From positions 1-52,017 of the forward strand of contig JAJEIT010000092.1 in assembly GCA_022827945.1 (NCBI GenBank): 52,017 nucleotides of DNA, written 5' to 3'. Of the stretch, positions 20,663 to 25,218 are shown piece by piece. Numbering within the stretch: position 1 is the first letter of the stretch; each line of letters begins with the position of its first letter. The stretch is from Dehalococcoidia bacterium. Its GTDB lineage: Bacteria; Chloroflexota; Dehalococcoidia; Tepidiformales; Tepidiformaceae. The position numbers were made by a program, and so were the translations under genes. The notes under the pieces are model-generated. The model did not search any database. It saw only the letters and a program-made list of their open reading frames with translations, and had not been told where the DNA came from.

Positions 20663-21478
20663 ATGCCGGGCAGAGTCGAGGGAAAGGTCGCGATCGTTGT
20701 CGGGGCGGGTCAGACGCCCGGCGCCACCATCGGCAACGGACGCGCTACCGCCATCCTCCTCGCCCGCGAAGGCGCCTCCGTCGTCGTCGCCGACCGCGAC
20801 CTCGCCTCCGCCGAGGAGACGGTCGCCATGATCGCGGAGGAAGGCGGAACCGCCTCTGCCTGCGAGGTCGACGCCACCAGCGAGGACAGCCTCGCTGTCA
20901 TGGTCGCCGAGACAGTCGCCCGCTACGGCGGCCTCGACATCCTCCATAACAACGTCGGCGCCAGCGTGGGCGCCGGCGACGCCTCCCCCATGGAGATGAC
21001 CGAGGAGGGCTTCGACCGGATCGTCGCCCTCAACTTCAAGAGCCACTGGCTCGCCTCGCGCCGGGCCATCCCCGCCATGCGCGAACGCGGCGGCGGCTCC
21101 ATCGTCAACATCTCCTCGATGGCCGCGCGCCACGCCTACCCGTTCCTCGGCTACAAGGCCACGAAGACCGCCCTCCTCGCCCTCACCGAGCAGCTCGCCG
21201 CCCAGCACGCCCGCGACAACATCCGCGTGAACGCCATCCTCCCCGGCGCCATGAACACCCCCATGGCTATCGAGCCACGCGTCGCCGCCGGAGCCGACCG
21301 CGCCGAGCTCGTGGCGAAGCGCGACAGCCGCATCCCCCTCGGCGGCAAGATGGGCACCGGCTGGGACGTCGGCTACGCCGCCCTCTTCCTCCACTCCGAC
21401 GAGGCCTGCTTCATCTCCGGCGTCTCCCTCCACGTCGACGGCGCGGAGCACGTCAGCGACAACGTCGCCGGCCAGTAG
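20663..21478 (+). CDS. SDR-family oxidoreductase
   Basis: A 271-residue NAD(P)-dependent short-chain dehydrogenase. The cofactor motif is unusual in carrying an insertion (VVGAGQTPGATIGNGRATA in place of TGxxxGIG). HNNVGA, NISSM, the catalytic GYKATK (Tyr, Lys) and ILPGAMNTP follow the family. The ATG follows AGGGGAGG. Its last 13 bases (21466-21478) are repeated at 23912-23924, on the other side of the restriction-modification genes. It is divergent from the SDR at 19643. Substrate unknown. Confidence 0.9.
   Translation: MPGRVEGKVAIVVGAGQTPGATIGNGRATAILLAREGASVVVADRDLASAEETVAMIAEEGGTASACEVDATSEDSLAVMVAETVARYGGLDILHNNVGASVGAGDASPMEMTEEGFDRIVALNFKSHWLASRRAIPAMRERGGGSIVNISSMAARHAYPFLGYKATKTALLALTEQLAAQHARDNIRVNAILPGAMNTPMAIEPRVAAGADRAELVAKRDSRIPLGGKMGTGWDVGYAALFLHSDEACFISGVSLHVDGAEHVSDNVAGQ
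21466..21478. repeat. 13-bp direct repeat, left copy (flanks R-M module)
   Basis: CGCCGGCCAGTAG, identical to 23912-23924. The left copy is the 3' end of the SDR gene including its stop; the endonuclease gene ends 17 nt to the right. Confidence 0.7.
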
Positions 21479-21495
21479 GGGCTCGTGGGCTTCCG

Positions 21496-22224
21496 TCAGA
21501 GAGGCCGAAATTTCCTGTCGTGGTAGCCATACGAATCAGAGTTCCTGGCGACTACAACTTCGAGTGCGGCATCGATGACTTGATCGAGGTCGAGGGCGTC
21601 TTCCGGGGATCCTGCCTCGGTGAAGGAAATGCTTGGAGTGGAGCCTTCCGTGGTTGCTAGGCCAACGTAGAGTTTTTCGTACTGTTCCTCGCGCGCTGAG
21701 GGGTCGGCGCGACCGGTGAAGAGGCTGAGTCCCCGATGCGCGTTGACAAATGTAGCCGCTCGCTGACTGGTTGCGTCTGCCTTGGCCCCGCTATCGAAGA
21801 TGAACAAACCGATCAGCGTCGAGTATGGAAATCTTCGATGGAGTGTCACCGCCTCGAACAGCATGTCGCCCCGACGGTTGGTGAAGTTCTTCTGGTAGTT
21901 CTTCGTCCGTGCGTCGCGGAAATTGATGCACTTGATGGAGAACGCGAGCATCAGCCCTGACTCTTCGGTGGCCCATGTAACGTCGACTTTCTTGTTGCCG
22001 ATGCCTCCTGCCATCCGCCGTTCCGCGCCAGAGACTCCTGAATCGCCGGGAAGGGAAGGCCGGGCGCCCGCAAGGCCCCTCTCCAGTAGCGATGCGCCTA
22101 CAACCTGAGCAATTGCTGCCGACATCCGCTCCGAGTAGCGCTTCTTTTCCGGTGCTCTCGCATCGTCTCCTGGTTTCACACCCAGTTCCAGCAGCGCTTC
22201 TGTAAGGACCTCGCTGGCTGTCAT
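21496..22224 (-). CDS. Type II restriction endonuclease (putative)
   Basis: A 242-residue protein coupled to an adenine methyltransferase, so most likely its cognate endonuclease. The core KKVDVTWATEESG ... AFSIKCINFRD (residues 78-104) fits a PD-(D/E)xK nuclease, with Asp81 and an S96-I97-K98 in place of the usual ExK. NFTNRRGDMLFEAVTLHRRFP follows as a helical segment. It begins at ATG 22224, overlapping the methylase TGA in ATGA. Sizes of 242 and 542 residues recall XhoI/PaeR7I-like pairs, but I cannot show homology, and the recognition site is unknown. GC content is visibly lower than in the host genes. Confidence 0.7.
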   Translation of the reverse strand: MTASEVLTEALLELGVKPGDDARAPEKKRYSERMSAAIAQVVGASLLERGLAGARPSLPGDSGVSGAERRMAGGIGNKKVDVTWATEESGLMLAFSIKCINFRDARTKNYQKNFTNRRGDMLFEAVTLHRRFPYSTLIGLFIFDSGAKADATSQRAATFVNAHRGLSLFTGRADPSAREEQYEKLYVGLATTEGSTPSISFTEAGSPEDALDLDQVIDAALEVVVARNSDSYGYHDRKFRPL

Positions 22225-23849
22225 GCCGAGCGACTCCGGGTCTGCCGGCGGTTTCGAAGTTCGTCTCGCGCCGCCCTGATAGCGACCAAGTCAGGATCGG
22301 AGCATGACGAGAGAAGGATCCTGTCAACCCTTGCCCGTAGTTCGTCGAGCTTGCCAGGTCGCAACAGTGGCCCCGCCGTCGCCTTGATGGCTCGAAGCTC
22401 TGACTGGTGAGTAGCGATGAGAGATGCGGTAGGCACTGGCAACCGGCTGGCTTCCCGAGGCTCCAGCTTGAGGACGCCACCGCCGTAGGAACGACCAACT
22501 ATCTCTGCGCCCAGGGATGTCACCGAGTTCAGGGCAGCGAGTGGAAGGAGTTCTGTACCGAGTCGCCTGTGTTGGTTGAGGACCAAGCCGTGCACTGAGT
22601 TGAGTGCCTGCACCCCTCCAGTATTGGTGATGAGTCGTGGCCCCTCGTGGCTCATGTAGGTGATGAATATGTCGGCTGTTCTGGGAAGGGGAACCCGCCA
22701 CCATGGTCTTCGCGCGCGACACTTGTAGGCGTTGTCCACACCCTGCGCCTCTCCTGACCTGATGTAACGTTGGGCAGCTCGCGAGAGTGTGCTTTCTTGG
22801 GGATAGAACAGGAGGGTTGGCTCGTCGTGCGCCGAGAGTTCGGCGTGTGCTGCTCGGGAATAGGTAAGGCCTCGGAGTGCCCGCTTACCCGGCGGCAAGA
22901 CGGGGGCCAACTCATCGTCGTGCAGTCCGAGTGCCTGGGCGCGGCTCCGGCGAATGCGAAAGAAGTTGTTGTTGCCGCTGACTGCACCAAGGTATGGCAT
23001 TCCCCAAGCTGCCAGGGACTCGAAGCCGGGGGACTCGACCACAGATTGGTACGACCGCAACAGCTCATCGCCTACAAGGGCTGCTGACCACTTTGTGTCA
23101 CCCGTGCTTGGCCTCCAGACCCGGTGAGAAGTCGTGTTGCTGGCTAGGGCCCGGATGTCGGGGATCTGAGTGAGTGAAATTGAGTCTGTTCCTCCAGTGC
23201 CTTCTGCGAGGAGCAACACCACCTCGCTGGTCACGTCAGGGAAGACCAGCTGCTCGAAAAGGACGAGCGTCACTTCCTTGAAACGTTGCATGAGGTGGCG
23301 CCGCACAGGCGCCGCATACCTGGCGTGGAGGAGTTCTGCCGGCAGAACCAAGGCTAATCGCCCGTCTTCCTTCAGAAAGCGCGAGGCATGGACCACGAAA
23401 GCCGCCCACGAACTCGCAAGGCCGTCAATGCGAACCCCGCCCGCCAGCGCCGCTCGCTGGGCCTTGGCGCGTGCGGGCCCAGAGAACGACTGATACCGGA
23501 TGTAGGGAGGGTTCCCTATGACGGCGTCGCAGTGTTGACTCGGGATGACGTCGAAGAAGTCCGCGGTTTGGATCGTCGCTGTCGCGCCGAGTGTGGCCAG
23601 CGTCCCACTCGCTGTGGCGCTGGCAAAGGAATCTATCTCGTAACCAAAAATCTCCCCATCGACGGCTTCAGATTCTGGAGACAGGGAGTCAAGCCGCTTC
23701 CAGGCAGCTTGAAGCAACGATGCCTCACCACACGATGGTTCCAGGATAGTGTCCTTGTGACTCCGAATCGCCCACCTCGCAAGGTGCTCGGCGATCTCTG
23801 TCGGAGTGTAGAAAGCTCCCCGCGCCTTCCGGTCAGCTGTCGCTGTCAC
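22221..23849 (-). CDS. N6-adenine DNA methyltransferase (gamma class), type II R-M
   Basis: A 542-residue modification enzyme that methylates adenine N6 to protect host DNA. Motif X (GAFYTPTEIAEHLARW, 11-26), motif I (ILEPSCGEASLL, 35-46) and catalytic motif IV (NPPY, 113-116) are in the gamma-class order. A target-recognition domain of about 250 residues (IRRSRAQALGL, GRSYGGGVLKLEPREASRLPVP) completes it. The GTG at 23849 follows GGGGGAG at short spacing. A perfect 8-bp inverted repeat (23874-23901) lies upstream and may regulate it. GC is lower than the surroundings, and the module is bounded by 13-bp direct repeats, which points to insertion between the SDR and MFS genes. Confidence 0.88.
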   Translation of the reverse strand: MTATADRKARGAFYTPTEIAEHLARWAIRSHKDTILEPSCGEASLLQAAWKRLDSLSPESEAVDGEIFGYEIDSFASATASGTLATLGATATIQTADFFDVIPSQHCDAVIGNPPYIRYQSFSGPARAKAQRAALAGGVRIDGLASSWAAFVVHASRFLKEDGRLALVLPAELLHARYAAPVRRHLMQRFKEVTLVLFEQLVFPDVTSEVVLLLAEGTGGTDSISLTQIPDIRALASNTTSHRVWRPSTGDTKWSAALVGDELLRSYQSVVESPGFESLAAWGMPYLGAVSGNNNFFRIRRSRAQALGLHDDELAPVLPPGKRALRGLTYSRAAHAELSAHDEPTLLFYPQESTLSRAAQRYIRSGEAQGVDNAYKCRARRPWWRVPLPRTADIFITYMSHEGPRLITNTGGVQALNSVHGLVLNQHRRLGTELLPLAALNSVTSLGAEIVGRSYGGGVLKLEPREASRLPVPTASLIATHQSELRAIKATAGPLLRPGKLDELRARVDRILLSSCSDPDLVAIRAARDELRNRRQTRSRSA

Positions 23850-23873
23850 CGACTCCCCCGAAATGCTGAGACT

Positions 23874-23901
23874 CCACGAACACTAGCACAATTGTTCGTG
23901 G
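23874..23901. promoter_or_regulatory. Inverted repeat upstream of the methyltransferase (operator candidate)
   Basis: CCACGAAC (23874-23881) and GTTCGTGG (23894-23901) are perfect complementary arms separated by 12 nt containing CTAG. The site is 25 nt upstream of the methylase GTG. It could bind a repressor or the methylase itself. Confidence 0.5.
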
Positions 23902-23911
23902 CCGTCACGAA

Positions 23912-23924
23912 CGCCGGCCAGTAG
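23912..23924. repeat. 13-bp direct repeat, right copy (flanks R-M module)
   Basis: CGCCGGCCAGTAG, identical to 21466-21478. This copy lies between the R-M promoter region and the MFS stop codon (23929-23931). Confidence 0.7.
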
Positions 23925-23928
23925 CTCG

Positions 23929-25218
23929 CTACCCCGGGGACTCGCCGCCGCTGGAGCGCATGCGGCGCAGCGACGGCTGCGTGAAGAGCACCACGATCGC
24001 GATCGCCACCAGCGTGAGCCCGCAGGCCACGAACCACTCGCGCGAGCCCCAGACGTCCGCCATCAGGCCCGCCAGCAGCCCGCCCAGGGGCATGCCTCCC
24101 GCCATGGCGAGCGTGTAGATGCTCATCACCCGCCCCATGACCTCGTGGGGCGTGTTCGCCTGGATCAGGGTCAGGTTCAGGTTCGTGAAGAAGCCCGCGT
24201 TCCAGCCCGTCGCGAACATGATCGCCATCGACGCGACGTACCAGAGGGAGACGCCGAACGCGGCGTTCAGCGTCCCGCCGGTGATGAGCGTCACGATGAA
24301 CCACAGCCCCGCCCGGTCCAGCCGCGTGAACGACGCCAGCAGCAGCGAGCTCATGAGCATGCCCACGCCCATGGCGGTGAAGAACATCGAGGTCTCGAAG
24401 GCCCCCACGTTGAGGTCTTCCCGGGCGATCTTGGGGAGCAGGGTCATGAATGTCCCCGCCATCACCAGCGCCGTCGTCATCAGCACGAGCATCAGGGTGC
24501 GTATCCCCGGGTGGCCGGCCACGAACGCCAGCCCCTCCCGCACCTCTGCCCCCAGGTGGCGCCGAGGCCCGGTCCGGTCGACCGCCGGTACGCGGAGCGG
24601 GATCAGCGCCATCAACCCGACGCCAAGCAACACCGCCTGACCGGCGAAGGCCGCCCCCACCCCGCCGATCGCGATCATCGCCCCGCCGATCGCCGGACCC
24701 GCGATCATCGAGACGTTCTGGCTCAGGCTCATCAGCGTGACGGCGTTCAGCAGGCGCGAGGGCTCGACCAGCGAAGGCACGATCGCGACCCGCACCGGCT
24801 GTCCGAACGCCACGGTCGCGCCGAGGGCCAGCGCTAGCGCCATCGTGAGGGGAATGGTCATGACATCGGCCCACACGAGCACCGCTGTCAGCGCCGTCAC
24901 GACAACACCGCCGACCTGGCTGGCGAACAGCAACAGCCGCCGGTCGATGCGGTCGGCGAGCGCTCCCGCCGGCAGCCCGAACACGAGGATCGGGAGCCCC
25001 AGCGCGAAGATGATCAGTCCCAGCGCCTGACCGGAGTCGAACAGCTCCAGCGCCAGCCACGTGAACGCGAACTGCCGCACCGACTGCGACAGTGCGAACG
25101 TCATGTTGTTCGCCCACAGCAGGGCGAAGTTCCGCGACTGGAACGCCGAGAACGTCTGCAGCGAGAGCCGTCGCTCCGAGCGCGGTGGCGCGGAGTCGGC
25201 TCGCGTTACCGTCGCCAC
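23929..25218 (-). CDS. MFS transporter (enterobactin-exporter EntS/MFS_3-like)
   Basis: A 429-residue membrane protein with about twelve hydrophobic helices, of the major facilitator superfamily. The N-terminal SFQSRNFALLWANNMTF-like opening (here FSAFQSRNFALLWANNM) and the loop ALADRIDRRLLL after helix 2 are characteristic of EntS-type drug or siderophore exporters driven by the proton gradient. The GTG at 25216-25218 is used as the start, since the protein begins a short basic tail before the first helix. It lies 71 nt downstream of the SDR pair on the same strand and may be in their operon. Its 3' end abuts the right R-M repeat. Cargo unknown. Confidence 0.88.
   Translation of the reverse strand: MATVTRADSAPPRSERRLSLQTFSAFQSRNFALLWANNMTFALSQSVRQFAFTWLALELFDSGQALGLIIFALGLPILVFGLPAGALADRIDRRLLLFASQVGGVVVTALTAVLVWADVMTIPLTMALALALGATVAFGQPVRVAIVPSLVEPSRLLNAVTLMSLSQNVSMIAGPAIGGAMIAIGGVGAAFAGQAVLLGVGLMALIPLRVPAVDRTGPRRHLGAEVREGLAFVAGHPGIRTLMLVLMTTALVMAGTFMTLLPKIAREDLNVGAFETSMFFTAMGVGMLMSSLLLASFTRLDRAGLWFIVTLITGGTLNAAFGVSLWYVASMAIMFATGWNAGFFTNLNLTLIQANTPHEVMGRVMSIYTLAMAGGMPLGGLLAGLMADVWGSREWFVACGLTLVAIAIVVLFTQPSLRRMRSSGGESPG

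Follow-up and report, generated by a model that had tools for sequence, protein, structure and literature searches.

How can a restriction gene and its modification partner enter a chromosome without a mobile element to carry them? The movement of bare restriction-modification (R-M) genes has been a question since the first genome comparisons, and it is raised again by a putative Type II R-M unit on contig JAJEIT010000092.1 of a Dehalococcoidia bacterium of the family Tepidiformaceae (assembly GCA_022827945.1; here G000). The window that we analysed is positions 1 to 52,017 of this contig (52,017 nt). A preliminary description, made from the letters alone, had noted that the two R-M genes are bounded by an exact 13-bp direct repeat, and had proposed either insertion with duplication of a short target or capture by recombination at a short homology. 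We compared the locus with the eight other genomes of the genus (G001–G008) and with a family set of 38 genomes.

A 2,433-bp insertion between two convergent genes

The direct repeat, CGCCGGCCAGTAG, is present in exact copies at 21466–21478 and 23912–23924 on the forward strand, and the window contains no further match with one mismatch or fewer (shuffle expectation 0.19), in keeping with the claim of a single copy at each edge. The left copy does form the last 13 bases, including the TAG stop, of a gene for an SDR-family oxidoreductase (20663–21478, forward strand; Pfam PF13561/PF00106), the 3′ end of which constitutes the target sequence. The right copy lies outside the stop of a convergent gene for an MFS transporter (23929–25200, reverse strand; PF05977/PF07690), with 4 bases between them.

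The preliminary description had named a single 13-mer at an empty site in relatives as the sign of insertion, and its absence there, or many chance copies across the genome, as signs to the contrary. Each of the eight genus members compared has an orthologue of the SDR gene (87–97% protein identity), and the MFS gene is syntenic in seven of the eight, being missing from the SDR-adjacent place in G004. Six of the eight relatives have an empty site, in which the SDR stop is followed by the convergent MFS stop within 2–5 bases. Exactly one 13-mer is found at four of these sites (G001, G002, G003, and G007), and a diverged version in an otherwise like arrangement at the other two (G006, where it reads CGCCGGTCAATAA, and G008). 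Aligned by BLAST with G001, G002, G003, G006, and G007, the window breaks off on the left at 21478–21480 and resumes on the right at 23912, where the right copy begins. Because these breakpoints fall on the 13-mer, the single copy of the empty sites aligns with both copies in the window, and the event is an insertion of 2,433 bp (21479–23911), without counterpart in the six relatives, together with one duplicated 13-mer. SDR–MFS synteny was not found outside the genus, and the site was scored in nine genomes.

Chance copies of the 13-mer are few. The host genome (2.85 Mb, 99 contigs, of which the window is contig 44) holds three exact copies in all and each relative 0–2; since a reversed-pattern control likewise yields 0–2, the third copy, with which an unrelated PIN/VapC-like gene ends (contig C25, 20896–20908, in L001), is at chance level. 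As another attachment site, this third copy was rejected: the locus is conserved in five relatives, and no second 13-mer flanks the vapBC-like pair in G000. We also observed that G005 lacks the vapBC-like genes at the equivalent locus, where the alignment resumes near the 13-mer. At the insertion site itself, the left copy is followed by GGGCTCG (21479–21485) and the right one by CTCG (23925–23928), such that a repeat of 17 bp could be read, with 3 bp inserted into its left copy, a resemblance that may be due to chance.

The division of the genome into 99 contigs invites the suspicion that the structure is an artefact of a draft or metagenome-derived assembly. The insert, however, lies in the middle of a contig, both flanks are syntenic with those of the relatives, and 13 bp is shorter than the usual assembly words; we give this explanation hardly any credence.

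The inserted DNA is foreign in composition. Its two genes have a GC content of 58–61%, as against 67–72% in the neighbours, the contrast that had been reported on both sides of the module, and the proposed test of codon usage across the boundary gives the same picture, with GC content at third codon positions (GC3) of 0.65 and 0.67 in the two R-M genes and 0.91–0.96 in the neighbours. The endonuclease gene has no match in any other of the 38 family genomes, and the closest methyltransferase in the genus, in G002, is only 43% identical and stands in a different place. On account of this confinement to one genome, the distance of the nearest methyltransferase, and the GC3 shift, a gain of the R-M unit is strongly supported and much more likely than its repeated loss.

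Reuse of the site by a second candidate defence pair

Immediately behind the equivalent SDR stop, G005 and G004 carry a two-gene unit of another kind. PADLOC recognises this pair as the candidate defence system HEC-01 (HEC-01A, E = 1e-150; HEC-01B, E = 2e-56). The HEC-01-like pair consists of an AAA ATPase and a small partner protein, and is located at L034:1047–2837 in G005 and on contig C1 of G004 (the matching pair in L035). The HEC-01 genes of G005 also have a low GC3 (0.68–0.71), and they are flanked on both sides by GGCCAGTAG, which is the last 9 bases of the 13-mer; on the right, GGCCAGTAG is formed by the last bases of HEC-01B itself. In G004, where the MFS gene is missing, the right edge is without a score. 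The HEC-01 cassette and the R-M unit thus have the site in common and differ in their genes. Reuse of the insertion site by a second candidate defence pair is the new element of the present analysis.

The two HEC-01 loci align at 75%, unbroken through the SDR gene and the cassette, and for this reason HEC-01 may be old in the genus and have been lost elsewhere. A comparable history can be imagined for the R-M unit, namely, an ancient presence followed by repeated precise loss in the other species, given that direct repeats of 13 bp allow exact deletion. Whereas such a history is possible for HEC-01, the R-M unit would have to be lost in every other sampled lineage while its composition stayed foreign, and we regard its ancient presence as very improbable.

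Short homology and its rivals

The preliminary description left a choice between duplication of a target and capture at a short homology. The insertion is borne out, whereas the data separate the two mechanisms not fully; we lean toward short homology. Specifically, we favour a single crossover at a short homology between incoming R-M DNA and the chromosome over target duplication at a staggered cut, and give it about an even chance of being correct. What came in was probably a small circular DNA or a fragment of one, and a single recombination with the chromosome would have taken place where the two happened to be identical over 13 bp. This would leave one 13-mer at each junction and an intact SDR stop, with the insertion placed exactly at the SDR 3′ end, inside the gap of 2–5 bp that separates the convergent stops. 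Since neither the SDR nor the MFS gene is broken, the site tolerates insertions. A homology of this length would also be easy to find, because chance alone should give approximately 566 identities of 13 bp when the insert is set against the entire genome. Identity of at least 13 bp at a given junction has a frequency of 5e-6 among random position pairs. In G005, the coincidence of the right 9-bp repeat with the end of HEC-01B fits a cassette that carried the homology in.

Several points weigh against this crossover, in which both the circular intermediate and the short homology are inferred. No donor molecule or circle is known, and the homology on the donor side is thus uncheckable. The G005 repeat has only 9 bp (chance probability of 2e-4 at a junction) and owes part of its length to a shared TAG stop. 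Moreover, random short homology would not be expected to bring two cassettes to exactly one base, unless insertion at most other places does harm.

The identical final sequence would result from a target-site duplication, in which the R-M unit entered a 13-bp staggered cut whose gap was then filled in; a transposase acting in trans could have made the cut, or an offset double-strand break could have been closed by end joining. This counts in favour of the duplication as much as against the crossover. The end-joining protein Ku is encoded in the host genome and in seven of the eight relatives. Set against this, a staggered cut of 13 bp would be a long one. Neither a transposase nor terminal inverted repeats above chance were found in the insert, the best match between its ends being TCGTG (p = 0.37). 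Indeed, no gene for a recombinase, integrase, or transposase is present there, the lack of a visible integrase or transposase having been noted previously, and the insert is taken up by two genes only. A related R-M unit in another Chloroflexota genus (endonuclease 62% identical) replaces about 38 other bases of its relatives and shows no duplication, which argues that the R-M unit has no built-in habit of duplicating its target. Short target duplications have nonetheless been described for some R-M units, in passages of PMC3874152 that cite Furuta 2010. We consider target-site duplication the less probable of the two, yet a serious contender. The related unit (L045:3286–5723, compared with L058 and L065) lies between squalene-hopene cyclase-like and radical SAM (HpnH-like) genes, in a place where the relatives vary in small genes; over 4,008 bases, its locus matches one in G268, a genome of the same phylum as the window, at 100% identity.

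The arrival of two unrelated cassettes at one base, at the 3′ end of a gene, which is a typical attachment position, raises a further possibility, site-specific integration by a recombinase supplied in trans. The SDR 3′ end would serve for attachment, with the 13-mer or only its final 9 bases as the core, as in an integrase-less cis-mobilizable element; GGCCAGTAG is indeed common to the repeats of both cassettes. However, the insert is without an integrase, direct support is lacking, the core is short, and the third 13-mer and the additional copies in relatives are at chance level. We hold this explanation to be unlikely. A broader proposition goes further: bare two-gene defence cassettes, lacking both an integrase and inverted repeats, would be inserted and exchanged at the SDR 3′ end as a true attachment site, by recombination machinery acting in trans, with core duplications of 9–13 bp as the result. 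We think it slightly less likely still.

The R-M unit and its place among known systems

The methyltransferase gene (22221–23849, reverse strand) encodes a protein of 542 aa, which matches the PADLOC model MTase_II PDLC03301 over its full length (E = 1e-154). Its N6_Mtase, Eco57I, and M_Eco57I_C domains score above the gathering thresholds (PF02384, PF07669, and PF22837), the C-terminal half being M.Eco57I-like, and its translation contains LEPSCGEA as the S-adenosylmethionine (SAM) motif and GNPPY as the NPPY motif. It is classed as an N6-adenine DNA methyltransferase of the gamma type; the functions of both insert proteins are predictions. The relative with 43% identity in G002 belongs to a second R-M-like unit (L048:6289–8843, contig 93), which has a different partner gene and is located not far from a helicase gene, in a region that varies and for which no clean empty site was found among the relatives. 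Close by, at about 5610–5670 of L048, is a repeat approximately 50 bp long that is dispersed in many copies through several members of the genus.

The putative restriction endonuclease gene (21496–22224, reverse strand; 242 aa) overlaps the methyltransferase gene by 4 bp. Its product has no sequence match in Pfam, NCBIfam, PADLOC, or PDB, nor among phage records. Homologues were found in other Chloroflexota (62–64%), on IMG/VR contigs (51–57%), and on plasmids of Cryobacterium, Pseudonocardia, Mycobacterium, and Bradyrhizobium (48–55%); of the six matching plasmids, five are classified as mobilizable. Wherever the neighbours were read, the closer homologues, from Chloroflexota, Actinomycetota, Bradyrhizobium, and viral contigs, stand directly downstream of such a methyltransferase; beside a more distant one (27%), on a Pseudomonas plasmid, no methyltransferase is annotated. 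Residues E68, D81, K98, D120, and E124 are invariant across the compared homologues, and one distant homologue has D-A-K where the others have S-x-K.

An AlphaFold model (pLDDT 81, pTM 0.84) has NucC (Z 8.8; root-mean-square deviation 3.6, 164 residues aligned) as the top row of a fold comparison. The better rows also include PspGI (7.5), BspD6I2 (7.3), BstEII (7.2), PaqCI, Kpn2I, BsaWI, and BbvCI, mixed with unrelated proteins of similar Z, and Foldseek with the same model returned nothing below E = 0.001. Taken with the homologue neighbourhoods and conserved residues, the best reading is a putative PD-(D/E)XK-like endonuclease in which one acidic residue is displaced.

A perfect 9-bp inverted repeat, CCACGAACA-N10-TGTTCGTGG, spans 23874–23901, upstream of where the methyltransferase gene starts; it folds as a hairpin in the DNA, with a z of only -1.2. 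An additional CACGAAC half-site (23906–23912) touches the right 13-mer. Together, the inverted repeat and the half-site could be a putative operator for self-regulation. The insert would appear to be a complete Type II R-M unit, comprising a promoter region, the methyltransferase, the putative endonuclease, and almost nothing else.

Insertion of R-M units with short target duplication has already been described. According to the passages of PMC3874152 that cite Furuta, Abe and Kobayashi (2010), some R-M units acquire a short target duplication on insertion and carry imperfect terminal inverted repeats. The present unit is like them in being a bare R-M unit with no mobility gene and a short direct repeat of the target, and differs in the inverted repeats, none of which was found here. 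Other R-M units insert with duplications of about 100 bp (Nobusato et al. 2000, as summarised in PMC3874152 and PMC3031569); these share with our locus R-M genes unlinked to a known element and the presence of the target at both edges, and differ in the length of the duplication, which is 13 bp here. PMC3031569 describes long, variable duplications, and reciprocal recombination at 1–3 bp of identity among the products. Finally, Oliveira et al. (2017; PMC5635113) reported that 27% of hotspots are without any of the mobility proteins searched for. The likeness lies in varied accessory genes between conserved genes with no mobility protein; there, homologous recombination in flanking core genes is invoked, whereas here a short target repeat stands at the junctions.

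Reuse of the site is the most interesting feature of the locus. In a little-studied lineage, the locus offers a clean picture of before and after, with six species that have the empty site, one R-M insertion bearing the 13-bp repeat, and a second candidate defence pair at one and the same base.
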